Shown: one piece after another, positions 7,074 to 35,807 of the stretch
Numbering within the stretch: position 1 is the stretch's first letter
Layout of the letters: every line of letters starts with the position of its first letter
Assembly (NCBI GenBank): GCA_003242085.1
Contig: QBML01000011.1
Location: 62,001 to 126,000 of the forward strand
Origin: Pseudanabaena frigida
Lineage (GTDB): Bacteria; Cyanobacteriota; Cyanobacteriia; Pseudanabaenales; Pseudanabaenaceae
Length of the DNA stretch: 64,000 nucleotides
Direction of reading: 5' to 3'
Notes under the pieces: model-generated
Told to the model about the DNA's origin: nothing
Databases searched by the model: none
The model's input: the letters and a program-made list of their open reading frames with translations, nothing else
Made by a program: the position numbers and the translations under genes

Positions 7074-8213
7074 ATGGCGAAAAATTCTTCTGCAACGGCA
7101 AATAGTCAAGTTGATAAGACTGCTGCGATCGCCCAAGCGACCAAATCTAGCATCAGCCCTGAGAAAAAGAAGGCGCTTGATGCAATCATGCAAAAAATCG
7201 AGAAGGATCACGGCAAAGGCTCGATTATGCGTTTGGGTGATGCCACTAATATGCGCGTTGAGACCATTCCTAGTGGCGCATTACCCCTCGATCTCGCCCT
7301 TGGTGGTGGATTACCTAAAGGACGAGTGATCGAAGTTTACGGGCCAGAAAGCTCTGGTAAAACTACTTTAGTCCTACACGCGATCGCGGAAGTACAAAAG
7401 CGTGGCGGTGTAGCTGCATTCGTTGATGCTGAACACGCACTAGATCCTACCTACGCTGCAAGCGTGGGCGTTGATATTAATAACTTGCTAATTTCCCAGC
7501 CCGACTCAGGGGAAATGGCGCTGGAAATCGTCGATAACCTCGTGCGATCGATGGCAGTGGATATTATCGCGATCGACTCAGTTGCGGCACTCGTCCCTCG
7601 TGCAGAAATCGAAGGCGAAATGGGAGCATCCCATGTTGGTTTACAAGCGAGATTGATGAGTCAGGCTCTGCGTAAAATTACAGCTAATGTCGGCAGATCT
7701 AATTGCATTGTTATTTTCTTAAACCAATTGCGTCAAAAAATTGGCGTATCCTACGGTAGTCCTGAGACAACTACAGGTGGAACCGCACTGAAGTTTTATG
7801 CTTCGGTACGTCTAGACATTCGTCGTATCCAAACTCTAAAAAAAGGTACAGAAGAATATGGAATTCGTGCCAAGGTCAAAGTTGCCAAAAACAAAGTTGC
7901 CCCACCTTTCCGAATTGCTGAATTTGACATTATCTTCGGTAAGGGTATTTCTACTGTCGGATGCCTTGTCGATCTTGCAGAAGAAATGAGTATCATTGTC
8001 CGTAAGGGTGCTTGGTATAGTTACCAAGGCGACAACATTGGACAAGGAAGGGATAACACGATCAAGTATATGGAAGACAAGCCAGAATTTGCTCAAGATG
8101 TAGAAAGACAAGTCCGAGAAAAACTCTCCGCAGGTGTAGCAGTTTCAGCAACCAAAGTCGTGCCTGAAGAAATTGAGCCTGAAGATGATGATGTCCCACC
8201 AGAAGATTTCTAG
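7074..8213 (+). CDS. recA: Recombinase RecA
   Basis: Canonical Rec[51 protein letters not shown]. Confidence 0.98.
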
Positions 8214-8291: not shown

Positions 8292-10454
8292 TTAGAAAAC
8301 TAACATTTCGCGAATTAGCCATCTGTTATCTTTTTTCACCAAATCATATTCAACTGTATAGTTAGAATCCTCTTTTGAGGCTCCGCGATCTAGCTCGCCA
8401 TTGTTAAAGAAATTGCGTGACTCTGAAATTTTCGCAACTACCTTAGCTTTACTATCACCGTCAGGAATAACTTTATCAACTTCACTAGATTTTATTTGAT
8501 ACTGCAAATAGGAGTTGCCAGCTTTAAGATCCTTTGCCCTTCCTTTCCAATCACTCAATGCAGGCTCATCTAAAATTTCTTCTAAGAGATTATCTTCGTA
8601 GGTTTTGCCGAGTGCCTTTGACTTAGTTGACTGCCATGTTTCAATCACTTTAGTAGCAGTCTCTTTATTTAAGGGGCCAGCTTGAGCAGTTGCTACAGAG
8701 CTAGTTGTAACTTTAGTTGCTTCTATCAAGGAGGCGATCGGCTTCTCTAAAGGCACAAATGCCTCCGAGCGTGAAGAACCAATTAACGATCGAAAAGCCC
8801 AGACAACTAGCCATAGAGATGCACCAATTGAGGCGATCGCTACAGCGATTACAATTACTAAACGACCTAAATTAAATTTGCGTTTTGGCTGTGATGAATG
8901 AACTGGCGTATGAGCATGTCGTTTGACTTCTTTAACAGCTTCATTAATACCCTTTGCGGAAGTTCTTGTAGGTGGAACATTGCTGGGGCGGCGAGATTTT
9001 GGCAAATCTCGTGAAGCATTGATATTGCTACTGGACTGAGAATAGGAGGATGGACGTTCGAGAACTGGAACTGTAGAGCGCTGAAACCGATTTGGGGTCT
9101 CAGGTGCATAGGTAGACAGTCTCGGTTCGTTGCTGGCGCTGTTTTCAAAATCGCCCTTAACTGGTGAAAAATCGTCTAGAGATGTACTCAAACCTAAGCG
9201 ATCGCCACCTACAGGTGAAGTCCAGTCTGATGACAGCGAACCAGTATTGGGGAGCTCTTCTAAATACGATTGCACTTGCTCATCGGCAAAGTAATCCTTG
9301 AGAGATACGATTTGACTCATCAGATCGCGAAAATGTGGGTATACCTCTTCTTGCAACCAACGTTCGCTATAGAGACATAATCCTGGGAGCAAATCAGGTG
9401 CACCTTCAGAATTTTGACGAATGAATGCTATCTGATCTTCTTCAGAACTATTATCGATCGCCGCACTTGCTTCTTCGGTTTGTCCCAACAATAGAGCACA
9501 GACGGCTTTTTCCAGATAAATATCTTGCTTCGCACTGAGCTTAACCAGCAATCCCTTAGCACGACGAATCAGCGCAGGTTGGCGCTGCGAAAAACCACGG
9601 GCAATTAAAGCGTATACGGCTAAATAAGTAGCAACTGAAGATGGTCGCCGCGCTTCTTCTTCAAACAAAGTTTGCTGCTCGATCGCGGTCATATAGCTAC
9701 GCAATTGCTGAATAAATCGCAAAAAGTCGTCAATACCGAGGCTGGAATAGTCATTACCCGAGCCATCAATGCCGCGCCGCGCATCGAGCATTTCTTGCAA
9801 AAGTGCCATGCCTTTGCGATGCTCGTTGGTATGATTGTCAGGAGATGCTAACAATTCCAGAATGCGATAGGGACGGAGGCGAAATAGATCGGCTTGAATT
9901 TCACTGCGAATGCTGAGAAACAAACCTTCACGTAGTAGGATTTCTTGGGCTGATTCTAAAGCCGAGGCTGCCGATTCATATTGTCCTTGTTTCCAATATT
10001 CGCGACCAATATCTAGGAAGGATAGAGATACCGAGAGCAGTAGATCGGGATCGTGGGGCGAGATTCTTGCCGACTGGTGCTCGGCTTCTTCGGGGTCGTA
10101 ATAGGGTTTGGCTAGGGATAGAACTTTCTCGGATTCGCCGAGCTCGTACAAAATCAGTAATAGCCCTGCAAAGTCTTTTTCGTCAGCTTCAATTTGGGCA
10201 GGTAATGTGGCAACTGGGCGATCGCTAACTGGCTCATCCAAGTTACTAGCGGCAGTTGCAACACTAGGACGCTCGCGTTCAACTAAAATTTCATAAGCCT
10301 TATCGATAATCCGCTTGCGAGAGGCGATCGCTGCATCAGAATATTCGCGCCTTGGCATAGAGAGCAGGCGATCGCGATGGGCTTGATGTATCTTTTCTGG
10401 CACTGACAGATGTGTCAGACCAAGAATGCGGTAACAGTCTAGGGGAACTCTCAC
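8292..10454 (-). CDS. ftn2: Cell division protein Ftn2/ZipN (ARC6 homologue), J-domain-like N-terminus, TM, C-terminal IMS/DUF4101 domain
   Basis: N-terminal MRVPLDCYRILGLTHLSVPEKIHQAHRDR; single TM; C-terminal YTVEYDLVKKDNRWLI. Confidence 0.88.
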   Translation of the reverse strand: MRVPLDCYRILGLTHLSVPEKIHQAHRDRLLSMPRREYSDAAIASRKRIIDKAYEILVERERPSVATAASNLDEPVSDRPVATLPAQIEADEKDFAGLLLILYELGESEKVLSLAKPYYDPEEAEHQSARISPHDPDLLLSVSLSFLDIGREYWKQGQYESAASALESAQEILLREGLFLSIRSEIQADLFRLRPYRILELLASPDNHTNEHRKGMALLQEMLDARRGIDGSGNDYSSLGIDDFLRFIQQLRSYMTAIEQQTLFEEEARRPSSVATYLAVYALIARGFSQRQPALIRRAKGLLVKLSAKQDIYLEKAVCALLLGQTEEASAAIDNSSEEDQIAFIRQNSEGAPDLLPGLCLYSERWLQEEVYPHFRDLMSQIVSLKDYFADEQVQSYLEELPNTGSLSSDWTSPVGGDRLGLSTSLDDFSPVKGDFENSASNEPRLSTYAPETPNRFQRSTVPVLERPSSYSQSSSNINASRDLPKSRRPSNVPPTRTSAKGINEAVKEVKRHAHTPVHSSQPKRKFNLGRLVIVIAVAIASIGASLWLVVWAFRSLIGSSRSEAFVPLEKPIASLIEATKVTTSSVATAQAGPLNKETATKVIETWQSTKSKALGKTYEDNLLEEILDEPALSDWKGRAKDLKAGNSYLQYQIKSSEVDKVIPDGDSKAKVVAKISESRNFFNNGELDRGASKEDSNYTVEYDLVKKDNRWLIREMLVF

Positions 10455-10869: not shown

Positions 10870-12123
10870 CTAAGAATCAAGAGCGATCGCTTTATCAATT
10901 GCTAGTTTCTCATTTAGGCGTATTTGATAAGCATGTAACTCTTTAGGTTTGATGCCGCTAATAATGCAAAAACTATCAGCATCAATCCCACGGGCTAACA
11001 TTTCAATACACCATGTATGTCGAGCTTGGTTGATCGTTAGCGGAGAACCATCGAGATTGCGATAGGGCTGTGTCCAGCGTTCCCAAATTTGCTCGATCTC
11101 TTCTAAAGATAGTGGTTTGCAATCGCCGCTGACGAACATAGTCTCAATATCGTCATTTTTTCGATCTTTCAGATCGTTCTTCAGATCGTTTTTGCGATTT
11201 TTGAGATAGACACTGAGAGGATTATTGGTTGCTGAGCCATAGCGATGACCGAGAATTTTTTGATTGATCGGCACCGATCTTGTATTACCAGTAGCGTCTT
11301 TAGTGCTTAAAATTCCGTGATTTGACTGAATTTGATAATCTTTTAAGCGTAGTCGTGTAATATCGATTGCTGAAATCCCTGCCCCAAATAGTAAATAAGC
11401 GATCGCATAGTCCTTGGCACCACATTTTTTTGCTTGCAAAAGAATTTCGCGAACAGTCTCCGCAGGGATATCGATAATTGGTTGGGCTTGAGTCAGCGGA
11501 CTAACATCTTGGACAAACATATCAACGAGAGTACTTATAAACTCATCGCGATCGCTCCAGATCGCTTGGACATCACTTGTTAAGGTGATCACGGCATAGC
11601 CCAAGATGCACGTATTTAACAAGTTAGCCAATTTGATGGGTGGCAAAGAATATTGCAATCGCGAATTTACCAACACATCATGGATCGCTGTCGCGATTGT
11701 TTGATTGACTTGATTAATTCCTTGGGCAAGCGCTTGACGGCTTTCTAGCGGATATTGTCCCGCTTCGCCAACCAGCGATCGCATCAATTCAGGGACACTT
11801 TCGAGTGCCCGTAAAGAACTCTGGATGTAATATTTCAGAAATCTGCGTAGATCGCTCTGGGTAGACATATCAGACACCATGAATGACTCTCCCACTTGAG
11901 CCAACACCAAATATTTTTGCAGACATTCCTGCAATACCGCTAACAATAAACCATGTTTATTGCCAAAATGTCGAAATAATGTTACTTCATTGACCTGTGC
12001 GAAGTCCGCAATTTGGCGTGTGGTTGTCTCGGTGATTCCTTTGCTAGCAAACAACTCTAGGGCTGTGTTGACAATACGCTGACGAGTAGGAATTCGAGAT
12101 ACAGACATGAGAGCATGTACCAT
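10870..12123 (-). CDS. TetR/AcrR-family regulator with C-terminal tyrosine-recombinase-like domain
   Basis: TetR HTH (RQRIVNTALELFASKGITETTTRQIADFAQVNEVTLFRHFGNKHGLL) plus integrase-like C-terminus (YAIAYLLFGAGISAIDITRLRLKDY, LTINQARHTWCIEMLARGIDADSFCIISGIKPKELHAY). Start at ATG 12123 or 12106-12108 is preferred over TTG 12138, which lies in an operator-like palindrome. Confidence 0.8.
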   Translation of the reverse strand: MVHALMSVSRIPTRQRIVNTALELFASKGITETTTRQIADFAQVNEVTLFRHFGNKHGLLLAVLQECLQKYLVLAQVGESFMVSDMSTQSDLRRFLKYYIQSSLRALESVPELMRSLVGEAGQYPLESRQALAQGINQVNQTIATAIHDVLVNSRLQYSLPPIKLANLLNTCILGYAVITLTSDVQAIWSDRDEFISTLVDMFVQDVSPLTQAQPIIDIPAETVREILLQAKKCGAKDYAIAYLLFGAGISAIDITRLRLKDYQIQSNHGILSTKDATGNTRSVPINQKILGHRYGSATNNPLSVYLKNRKNDLKNDLKDRKNDDIETMFVSGDCKPLSLEEIEQIWERWTQPYRNLDGSPLTINQARHTWCIEMLARGIDADSFCIISGIKPKELHAYQIRLNEKLAIDKAIALDS

Positions 12124-12133
12124 TGAGATGATT

Positions 12134-12201
12134 TGCAAGTGCTACTTGCATTATTGCTTAAAAAACAGTTAGACTTAACATAACTGTAAGTGATACTTGC
12201 A
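12134..12201. promoter_or_regulatory. Two operator-like near-palindromes TGCAAGTGCTACTTGCA (12134-12150) and TGTAAGTGATACTTGCA (12185-12201)
   Basis: 17-bp sites with 7-nt arms, 51 bp centre to centre, in the TetR/desC divergent gap. Confidence 0.7.
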
Positions 12202-12231: not shown

Positions 12232-13098
12232 ATGACCGCCACTACTGAAGCCATCTCAAAAGAAAAAAATCTGAACTGGACAAATGTTGCCTTCTTCAGT
12301 GCTTTTCATCTCGCTGCCCTCGCTGCGCCTTTTTACTTCTCATGGCAAGCTGTAATTCTTACAGTTTTCTTGCATTGGTTATTTGGCAGTATTGGCATCA
12401 CCTTAGGATATCACCGATTACTCAGCCATCGTAGCTTTCAAGTGCCTCAGTGGTTGGAATACATTATTGCCACAATTGGTGCCTTAGCCCTGCAAGGTGG
12501 TCCAGTATTTTGGGTGGGCGGACATCGTCAGCATCACGGTTTTACAGAAGATAATCAGAAAGATCCCTACTCGGCAAACAAGGGTTTTTGGTGGAGCCAC
12601 ATGATGTGGATCATGTACTCTAAGCCCGAGCATTTTCAGCGCTCCAACTACTGTAAGTTTGCACCCGATCTTGCCAACGATCCTTACTACAAGTTTTTAG
12701 ATGTTTACTTCCTACTATTGCAAGTGCCACTCGCAATATTACTTTATGTAATTGGCGAAACTGCATTCTCTGGTCTGGGGATGTCTTTCTTGGTTTACGG
12801 TATGGCAGTTCGCTCCGTAGCTCTTTGGCATAGTACTTGGTTGATTAACTCGGCTTGCCACAAATGGGGTTACAAGAATTTTGCTGAGACTCCCGATCAT
12901 TCTACAAACCTTTGGTGGGCAGCAATTTTGACCTATGGTGAAGGCTGGCACAACAATCACCACGCTTTTCCGAAGTCGGCACGTTCTGGCTTGAAATGGT
13001 GGGAAATCGATCCAACTTGGGGAGTGATCAATTTACTTCAGTCTCTTGGCTTAGCAAAGAAGGTTTACTTGGCTGAACCTTGGCAGCCCAGCAAGTAA
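12232..13098 (+). CDS. desC: Acyl-lipid/acyl-CoA delta-9 desaturase
   Basis: His boxes HRLLSHR, HRQHH, HNNHH. Start at 12232 (MTATTEAISKEKN) preferred over GTG 12190, which overlaps the palindrome. Confidence 0.93.
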   Translation: MTATTEAISKEKNLNWTNVAFFSAFHLAALAAPFYFSWQAVILTVFLHWLFGSIGITLGYHRLLSHRSFQVPQWLEYIIATIGALALQGGPVFWVGGHRQHHGFTEDNQKDPYSANKGFWWSHMMWIMYSKPEHFQRSNYCKFAPDLANDPYYKFLDVYFLLLQVPLAILLYVIGETAFSGLGMSFLVYGMAVRSVALWHSTWLINSACHKWGYKNFAETPDHSTNLWWAAILTYGEGWHNNHHAFPKSARSGLKWWEIDPTWGVINLLQSLGLAKKVYLAEPWQPSK

Positions 13099-33495: not shown

Positions 33496-34056
33496 TTAGA
33501 AATTTTTTGTAGCACTTTTCAAAATTGCCACTGTGTTTTTGTGGTTGCCATCCCATGCCCACATAATTGCTGTCCAGCCATTGCGATCCTGAGCATTGAG
33601 TCGCGCACCTGAGGCAATCAGCGATCGCACGATTTCGCTATAACCTTGACCCGCTGCCCACATTAGTGGTGTCCATCCATACTTGTTGCGTGTATTGGGA
33701 TTTGCACCCGCCGCCAATAAGACCCTCACAAGATCGGCATTACCATTCATTGCTGCCCATAACAGCGGTGTCCAGCCATATTCATCACGGACATTAACAT
33801 CGATCGCTTGAGAAAGTAGCGATCGCACGCTTTCAACTTTTCCATTCTGAGCAGCAGTTAATAATTGAGAATTTGGATTTTGTTTAGCCTCTTCTTGCTT
33901 AATTTGTTTGATTGGTTTAACGCTTTGTGTTGCAGGACTTTGCGGTAACTCGCTGGCATCAACACCTGTATAGACATTGGTGCTAATGCAGAGTACTAAA
34001 CTACAAACCAACACAAAACTCGTGCTTCTCAAAAAAGAATTCATAGACTTATCCAC
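33496..34056 (-). CDS. Secreted ankyrin-repeat protein
   Basis: Three ankyrin repeats (DEYGWTPLLWAAMNGNADLVRVLLAAGANPN). Confidence 0.92.
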   Translation of the reverse strand: MDKSMNSFLRSTSFVLVCSLVLCISTNVYTGVDASELPQSPATQSVKPIKQIKQEEAKQNPNSQLLTAAQNGKVESVRSLLSQAIDVNVRDEYGWTPLLWAAMNGNADLVRVLLAAGANPNTRNKYGWTPLMWAAGQGYSEIVRSLIASGARLNAQDRNGWTAIMWAWDGNHKNTVAILKSATKNF

Positions 34057-34083
34057 AATGCAACTAATACATTTGGCAAGATC

Positions 34084-34192
34084 GCTATAACCAAGAGAGT
34101 TAAGCCCAGACCTAGAAGAGAATCACGGCGCTACTCTCTTCTGAGCTTGGAGTTTGTCCAAACATAACTGGCTACTGCTATAAATGCCGAAT
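34084..34192. repeat. Degenerate, reverse-oriented MITE-like element
   Basis: Right end GTCCAAACATAACTGGCTACTGCTATA is the reverse complement of the TATAGCAGTAGCCAGTTATGTTAGGAC end seen at 5758 and 22938. Confidence 0.55.
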
Positions 34193-34340
34193 AGTTGATA
34201 AGAGTCTATGGATTTGGCTGGCGATCGGCTAGCGCAATTCTGCGGAGGTTTGTAAAAATCTAAGCTTTACTTCATCGTAAATCACCATAAAGTGCCTGAT
34301 AATAGTCTTTTTATTGATTTTTTAATTTCAATTACAAACG

Positions 34341-35807
34341 ATGAATAACCAAGTGGATATCGCAAACATAGATGCAATGCCGCCGAAGTTGCCACTACTC
34401 CAGATGTTTCGGATCGGCTTATTTCAGATGGGCTTAGGGATTATGTCTCTGCTGATCGCAGGGCTACTAAATCGCCTCATGATTAATGAACTGATAATTC
34501 CTGCTACCCTTGCCGCAGGTTTTATTGCGATGCCACTGTTTGTCTCACCTACGCGAGTATGGTTTGGTCAGACCTCCGATGCCAAAACAATATTTGGAAC
34601 CCATCGCTCAGGCTATGTCTGGGTTGGGGCTGTGGTATTTGCGCTAGCAGCCTTTTTGACTACTCAGGTTATGTGGCAATTAGGGCGCAGTGTTCATGAG
34701 GTGGGCTGGAATGGAATCACCTATGCATGGGCAATCTTTCTTGGTGTGATGTTCGCCATTTATGGAATGGCAATTAGTTTTAGTTCCACTCCCTTTGCAG
34801 CATTGTTAGTGGATATCTCTGACGAAGAGGAACGATCTAAATTAGTTGGTATAGTCTGGTCAATGTTAATGGTGGGAATTGTGATTGGGGCGATCGCTGT
34901 TTCCAAACTCTTACCCTGCACAGGTGCACCACCCAGTGAGGTGTCAATTTATGCCAATGGCGATCGCCTCGCACAATTACAGAAAGCGATTAATTCTGTA
35001 TTTACCATTATTCCTATAGCTGTGGTTGGTTTATCTTTCTTGGCTACCTATGGTATTGAACAAAAATATTCACGTTATAAGTTACGTGTCGCTCAAAACA
35101 ATATTCTCAATGCAACTACATCCGAAGAGAACCTAAGTCTTGGCAGAGCTTTACGGGTATTAACTGCTAGCAAACAAACTGGTCTATTCTTCTCATTTTT
35201 ACTAATGATGACTATTGGTATTTTCATGCAAGATGCCATTATGGAACCCTTTGGTGGTGCAGTATTTGGTATGAGCATTTGTGCAACCACGCAACTTAAT
35301 GCTGCTTTTGGAACGGGTACATTAATTGGTTTAAGTTCTTCAGGATTTTTAATTATTCCTCGCCTCGGCAAGGAAAATTCCACTAAATTAGGATGTTACC
35401 TAGTTGCAGCTAGTTGTGCTTTGTTGCTGATTTCAGGGCTTATCCAAAAAACTGTTGCCTTGCAAGTTGCACTAGCTCTATTTGGATTTGCATCGGGGAT
35501 TACGACTTCAGGTGCTTTGAGCCTCATGCTCGATCTAACTGCTGCTGAAACCGCAGGGACATTTATCGGAGCTTGGGGATTATCTCAGGCGATCGCTAGA
35601 GGGATAGCCACGCTCTTTGGTGGCATTGTGCTTGATGTTGGCAAGAAAATCTTCAGCAATTCCACTTATGCTTATAGTTTTGTATTTGTCTGCGAAGCTG
35701 CCGTTATGATTATTGCGGTAAGTCTACTTAGTCGGGTGAATGTGCAAGAATTTCGGACTGATGCAAAACAGGCGATCGCCGCTGTCTTCTCTAACGAAAT
35801 CGACTAA
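34341..35807 (+). CDS. BCD/PucC-family MFS transporter
   Basis: PLLQMFRIGLFQMGLGIMSLLIAGLLNRLMINEL..FVSPTRVWFGQTSDAKTIFGTHRSGYVWVG; ~12 TM. Confidence 0.85.
   Translation: MNNQVDIANIDAMPPKLPLLQMFRIGLFQMGLGIMSLLIAGLLNRLMINELIIPATLAAGFIAMPLFVSPTRVWFGQTSDAKTIFGTHRSGYVWVGAVVFALAAFLTTQVMWQLGRSVHEVGWNGITYAWAIFLGVMFAIYGMAISFSSTPFAALLVDISDEEERSKLVGIVWSMLMVGIVIGAIAVSKLLPCTGAPPSEVSIYANGDRLAQLQKAINSVFTIIPIAVVGLSFLATYGIEQKYSRYKLRVAQNNILNATTSEENLSLGRALRVLTASKQTGLFFSFLLMMTIGIFMQDAIMEPFGGAVFGMSICATTQLNAAFGTGTLIGLSSSGFLIIPRLGKENSTKLGCYLVAASCALLLISGLIQKTVALQVALALFGFASGITTSGALSLMLDLTAAETAGTFIGAWGLSQAIARGIATLFGGIVLDVGKKIFSNSTYAYSFVFVCEAAVMIIAVSLLSRVNVQEFRTDAKQAIAAVFSNEID

Follow-up and report, generated by a model that had tools for sequence, protein, structure and literature searches.

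A cyanobacterial TetR-type regulator fused to a tyrosine-recombinase-like domain that appears catalytically dead, encoded beside a fatty-acid desaturase

TetR-family proteins that regulate fatty-acid desaturases have been described from other bacteria. DesT from Pseudomonas aeruginosa sets the ratio of unsaturated to saturated fatty acids, palmitic acid and coenzyme A are given as its ligand, and the DesT marker motif has been reported from Pseudomonadaceae only (PMC13176608). In mycobacteria, MadR is an acyl-CoA responsive TetR-family repressor of the desaturases desA1 and desA2 (PMC8872791). The targets of MadR are not adjacent to madR, its operator is TCTGTGxxxxxxxGT, and the protein is a plain TetR dimer (PMC8872791). 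The window analysed here, a stretch of 64,000 nucleotides from Pseudanabaena frigida, contains a gene whose product joins a TetR regulator to a domain with the fold of tyrosine recombinases, next to a divergent desaturase gene. No published description of a TetR/dead-recombinase fusion was found in literature searches, with subscription papers mostly outside their coverage.

The fusion protein and its distribution

The reading frame of the fusion occupies positions 10870-12123 of the window on the minus strand and specifies a 417-aa product from an ATG at 12123. Met6 (12108) is a possible alternative start, since the orthologues from other genera start near this residue. The helix-turn-helix, residues 17-63 (11935-12075, minus strand), matches Pfam TetR_N with E=3e-13 and 49.6 bits against a cutoff of 24. 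All 53 of the 53 aligned orthologues match this family, and the stretch V44-L61 (VNEVTLFRHFGNKHGLLL) is near-invariant among them. It is followed by the TetR C-terminal dimer/ligand helical domain, approximately residues 70-205 (11509-11916, minus strand). In the full-length model this region is all-helical and the N-terminal half matches TetR structures in Foldseek, in agreement with the sequence-only reading, which had described a TetR helix-turn-helix plus a helical domain; Pfam TetR_C matches are weak and occur in some of the 53 orthologues only. The pTM of the full-length model is 0.56, a modest inter-domain confidence that makes the relative placement of the two halves unreliable. The best NCBIfam name match is PsrA, but it comes from the helix-turn-helix half only and is far under the PsrA cutoff. 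The orthologue on a plasmid of Gloeothece citriformis PCC 7424 is annotated publicly just as a 'TetR/AcrR family transcriptional regulator', and as the public record carries this name alone the extra domain is easily missed.

The extra domain comprises residues 218-417 (10873-11472, minus strand). Residues 221-383 match Pfam Phage_integrase with E=2e-8 and 34.7 bits against a cutoff of 27.1, and 49 of the 53 orthologues match this family individually. An AlphaFold model of the C-terminal domain, built with 33 aligned domains, has a pLDDT of 91.5 and a pTM of 0.89. When this model was compared with the PDB by Foldseek the top match was XerA (E=1.5e-8, TMq 0.64), followed by XerH, integron integrase, Tn1549 Int, Cre, and lambda Int; the 50 matches listed are tyrosine recombinases exclusively. 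A profile search of PDB sequences gave the archaeal XerC-like protein 4a8e (E=4.7e-11). A tyrosine-integrase catalytic domain had been proposed on the basis of two peptides, both of which are present, and the structure prediction suggested as a check returned a recombinase fold and not another one. The N-terminal core-binding domain of tyrosine recombinases is absent, residues 1-205 being TetR.

The active site has been largely lost. The catalytic positions were assigned from the alignment to 4a8e, and the residues found there in the window protein are S251, K275, N365, R368, I391, and Y399. The Arg-I site is S251 (GAGLR has become GAGIS), N365 and R368 stand at the His/Arg-II positions, I391 at His-III, and Y399 is the Tyr; these are the altered positions and the terminal Tyr that had been guessed by eye. 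Of the six catalytic residues R, K, H, R, H/W, and Y, the window protein therefore keeps K275, R368, and Y399 at best, and three is also the maximum kept by any of 170 distinct domains. At Arg-I, 137 of these 170 domains have Ser or Thr and 7 have Arg; at the His of HxxR, none of the listed residue classes is His. For the second Arg the count is 99 Gln and 51 Arg; 51 domains have Trp at the third His/Trp position, and 146 retain the Tyr. It is very hard to doubt, from these alignments and models, that the C-terminal domain is a recombinase fold without catalysis. The domain has acquired its own conserved features. A near-invariant, family-specific loop, GxRYGSxTxNPL, is located at residues 292-303, and the newly invariant residues include R282, N287, G296, N301, P302, W347, Q366, T370, W371, L415, and D416. 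The mean pI of the domain is 7.7, which is near neutral. Charge was considered as an argument for or against DNA binding and set aside as uninformative, the other recombinase domains of the same genome spanning pI 5.7 to 10.4.

A search of IMG/VR for a viral source of the domain found no relative, and among 39 genomes the only relative elsewhere was one weak match, to a Xer-like gene. Several irregular frames were observed. The window's own genome has a 530-aa frame with two tandem tyrosine-recombinase domains (loci L239/L242, contig C12, approximately 33891-35429), the first of which seems to be without Arg-I and HxxR. In genome G027 (contig C3, 2527478-2527639) a separate frame of 132 aa shares 56% identity with the final 54 residues of the domain, and the fusion locus of that genome, L030, has a single operator. 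The fusion at L151 (genome G045) carries an insertion of approximately 44 aa, its recombinase-like domain lies in two pieces (3207-2851 and 2718-2476), and it has one good operator. The orthologue from Cylindrospermum sp. NIES-4074 (L056, 4001-5215) has one in-frame stop codon.

The sequence-only reading had asked whether the architecture recurs in other cyanobacteria, and the fusion is widespread. It was found in all 26 of 26 Pseudanabaena genomes searched (76-100% identity) and, at 40-92% identity, in a set of 79 loci, drawn from genomes either named or binned, that includes Nostoc, Fischerella, Scytonema, Rivularia, Leptolyngbya, and Xenococcus. When the class Cyanobacteriia was sampled evenly, the TetR part was present in 197 of 389 genomes (E<1e-38), the matches listed being mostly frames of about 390-530 aa, i.e. 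fusions. A full-length fusion was present in about 41 of 387 genomes of a phylum sample; the class and phylum searches used different samples and different thresholds. An assembly artefact is ruled out by the presence of the fusion in many genomes. Between Pseudanabaena species dN/dS is 0.05-0.12 for the recombinase-like domain and 0.01-0.035 for the TetR half, figures that are rough because synonymous sites are near saturation, and the pattern of substitution indicates that the domain is under purifying selection.

The divergent desaturase and the candidate operators

The conserved divergent partner is a DesC-like fatty-acid desaturase (12232-13098, plus strand). The listed open reading frame begins at GTG 12190, within operator B (see below), and ATG 12232 agrees with the orthologues. 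Its histidine boxes, HRLLSHRSF, GHRQHH, HSTWLINSACH, and GEGWHNNHHA, closely resemble the boxes published for Delta9 DesC enzymes of cyanobacteria (PMC4390868). The same desaturase family adjoins the regulator head to head in all 79 of the 79 loci first examined. Apart from the desaturase there is little common to the loci beyond Pseudanabaena, and the other neighbours vary between genera. The regulator-desaturase pair together with both operators is also found on the 29-kb plasmid of Gloeothece citriformis PCC 7424. The best indication of what the regulator does is its conserved partner gene, and judging from this arrangement the regulator almost certainly controls the adjacent desaturase. 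A second desaturase of the same family is encoded in the window's genome, and the pattern search found no operator-like site near it. Two other genes, recA (7074-8213, plus strand) and a DnaJ/ARC6-like cell-division gene named by eye from its sequence (8292-10454, minus strand), are the regulator's neighbours in most Pseudanabaena, and neither is found there in other genera.

The region between the regulator and the desaturase has two copies of a 17-bp palindrome, TGCAAGTNNNACTTGCA, that flank the desaturase -10 box. Operator A (12134-12150) is the perfect palindrome TGCAAGTGCTACTTGCA and overlaps the desaturase -35; operator B (12185-12201) is TGTAAGTGATACTTGCA and is located at the expected start of desaturase transcription. 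Both were recognized by sequence conservation. These palindromes, found at the desaturase promoter beside the regulator's own gene, are candidate operators of the regulator. At least two sites are present in 167 of 169 fusion loci, usually spaced 46-53 bp apart and most commonly 46-48 or 51-53 bp, and matches to the operator pattern in the window number 9 where 0.97 are expected.

The putative desaturase promoter (12146-12175, plus strand) consists of a -35 TTGCAT (12146-12151), 18 bp, and a -10 TAGACT (12170-12175). A stricter sigma-70 consensus scan of the window found no promoter; its assignment rests on comparison. Site A ends in TTGCA toward the desaturase, and a -35 hexamer TTGCAN followed after 17 or 18 bp by a -10 was found in 126 loci. 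For operator B, the majority of loci show an overlap with the expected transcription start. The -10 motif is aimed solely at the desaturase in 93 inter-operator segments and solely the opposite way in 10, chance matches being expected with so short a motif. The -10 region is the most strongly conserved inter-operator sequence, and loci whose orthologue lacks the domain have it upstream of the desaturase as well. In one rearranged genome (L150) the regulator and the desaturase are in tandem, and both operators are upstream of the desaturase and not of the regulator, which indicates that the sites follow the desaturase.

Across 25 Pseudanabaena genomes no additional recurrent operator was found, save a partial site inside the desaturase gene. 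A wider regulon was dropped as a reading, as the operators recur just at the regulator-desaturase region of these genomes. The site inside the gene is a third operator-like palindrome, TGCAAGTGCCACTCGCA (12719-12735), at the codons for LQVPLA, and several other genomes have similar sites at this position. This palindrome was rejected as an operator: the peptide LQVPLA mostly accounts for it, leaving a mild excess (17% of 181 loci at p<0.05).

Orthologues without the recombinase-like domain

Some orthologues consist of the TetR part only, and they retain the desaturase partner; the TetR part alone can thus serve the same gene. The number of operators in these loci varies. Each of six genomes in one genus of family f5 has a single operator, and so does G031, from the window's own family. 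Another f5 genome, G476, has one good and one weak operator. G057 has two operators, and G545 is like G057, although its gene is near a contig end. The two sites in G057 and the second, weak site in G476 show that a locus can have two operators without the domain. The tree implies about three domain changes within the family. In G031 and G057 the domain seems to have been lost, and its absence from the f5 group may be either the ancestral state or a loss. With three phylogenetically independent contrasts only, too few to carry a statistical link, the comparison of operator number with the domain gave a median sign-test p of 0.5. Loci without the domain have a single operator in some cases but not in all, a pattern that fits coupling of two operators through the domain and is no proof of it.

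Proposed mechanism and rival explanations

Taken together, the regulator is probably a dedicated local TetR-type repressor of the divergent desaturase and of its own gene, with a dead recombinase domain that may couple dimers on two operators. A TetR dimer would bind the 17-bp palindrome TGCAAGTNNNACTTGCA. With operator A occupied at the desaturase -35 and operator B at the start site, RNA polymerase would be kept off the intervening -10, and a fatty-acyl or membrane-linked signal sensed by the TetR helical domain may release the repressor. The recombinase-like domain, no longer cutting DNA, would link the dimers on both operators into a higher-order complex. Domains of the tyrosine-recombinase fold normally associate across two DNA sites, and the coupling role is proposed because this association is taken as retained.

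How well do the parts of this mechanism stand against other readings? The positions of operator A at the -35 and of operator B at the start site form a repressor layout, and repression of the desaturase is, on this evidence, likely. Activation of the desaturase is improbable. It would be in keeping with operator A at the -35 region, and a TetR-like activator of lipid genes is known in FasR of mycobacteria (PMC7382501), but in the majority of loci operator B lies over the expected start site, a position suited to repression. That the recombinase-like domain couples the two operators is a tentative proposal, somewhat short of an even chance. The retention of the partner without the domain and the single operators in two TetR-only lineages, the six-genome genus and G031, were counted in favour of coupling. 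Against it, promoter geometry alone might account for a spacing of 46-53 bp, and spacings of 46-47 and 51 bp do not share one helical phase. A more ambitious version, possible though rather doubtful, makes the dead domain a built-in assembly module that holds TetR dimers on two operators in a recombinase-like complex around the promoter, so that a synapsis fold would serve cooperative desaturase repression across much of Cyanobacteriia.

Other roles for the domain have to be considered alongside coupling. It may be a second DNA-binding module that grips DNA beside or between the operators without cutting and so adds specificity; the fold is a DNA-binding one and the basic residues K308, R310, K311, and R282 are near-invariant. 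This is unlikely, as the best conserved inter-operator stretch is the -10 region, which is kept also where the domain is missing, and the domain is near neutral, though charge decides little. A role as a sensor or partner-binding module for lipid, protein, or temperature, independent of operator number, would agree with the near-invariant loop, the invariant C-terminal LD, and the G057 lineage, in which the domain was lost and two operators were kept. No ligand-binding relative was found, however, the listed Foldseek matches all being recombinases, and a sensor likewise has perhaps one chance in a few. The domain could also be a passive passenger, retained by chance after a read-through fusion and functionless. 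It evolves faster than the TetR part, at the dN/dS values given above, and has seemingly been lost at least twice, but those values are far below 1, many residues are invariant class-wide, and about 170 distinct sequences are intact, so that this reading is very improbable. Least credible of all is an active recombinase that inverts or excises the promoter segment between the palindromes. The Tyr is kept in most domains and two palindromic sites do flank the promoter, but most other catalytic residues are gone in nearly all members, the -10 points to the desaturase alone in the great majority of oriented segments, and the -35/-10 spacing holds in the 126 loci. The core site of a recombinase would also have to be longer than a 7-bp arm and a 3-bp centre allow.

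The suggestion that the fold was repurposed for regulation has thus been strengthened for the protein as a whole, by the invariant partner, the conserved operators over the partner's promoter, and purifying selection, while what the domain itself contributes we infer. It appears that the fold of a mobile-DNA enzyme has been retained for gene control and not for recombination. Desaturase levels in cyanobacteria bear on cold and light tolerance, and the locus offers a concrete regulator, operator, and target that are testable in many strains.

Among the described systems, DesT is like the fusion in being a TetR-family regulator with control of a desaturase, as proposed here, and we know of no recombinase domain in DesT. 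By function, the predicted operators at the desaturase promoter would place the fusion with regulators of the DesT/MadR type. MadR differs in its non-adjacent targets, its other operator, and its plain TetR dimer. The Xer-type tyrosine recombinases (XerA 5hxy, XerH 5jjv, and 4a8e) have a catalytic-domain fold like that of residues 218-417, but the fusion has no core-binding domain, has lost catalytic residues, is joined to TetR, and has a loop of approximately 10 aa inserted after the third strand. Eukaryotic Crypton-derived proteins are domesticated inactive recombinases that keep the tyrosine-recombinase fold without recombination. The fusion differs from them in being bacterial, in its attachment to a putative TetR repressor, and in having a defined adjacent target, and it provides a conserved bacterial example of a recombinase fold retained by selection without its chemistry.
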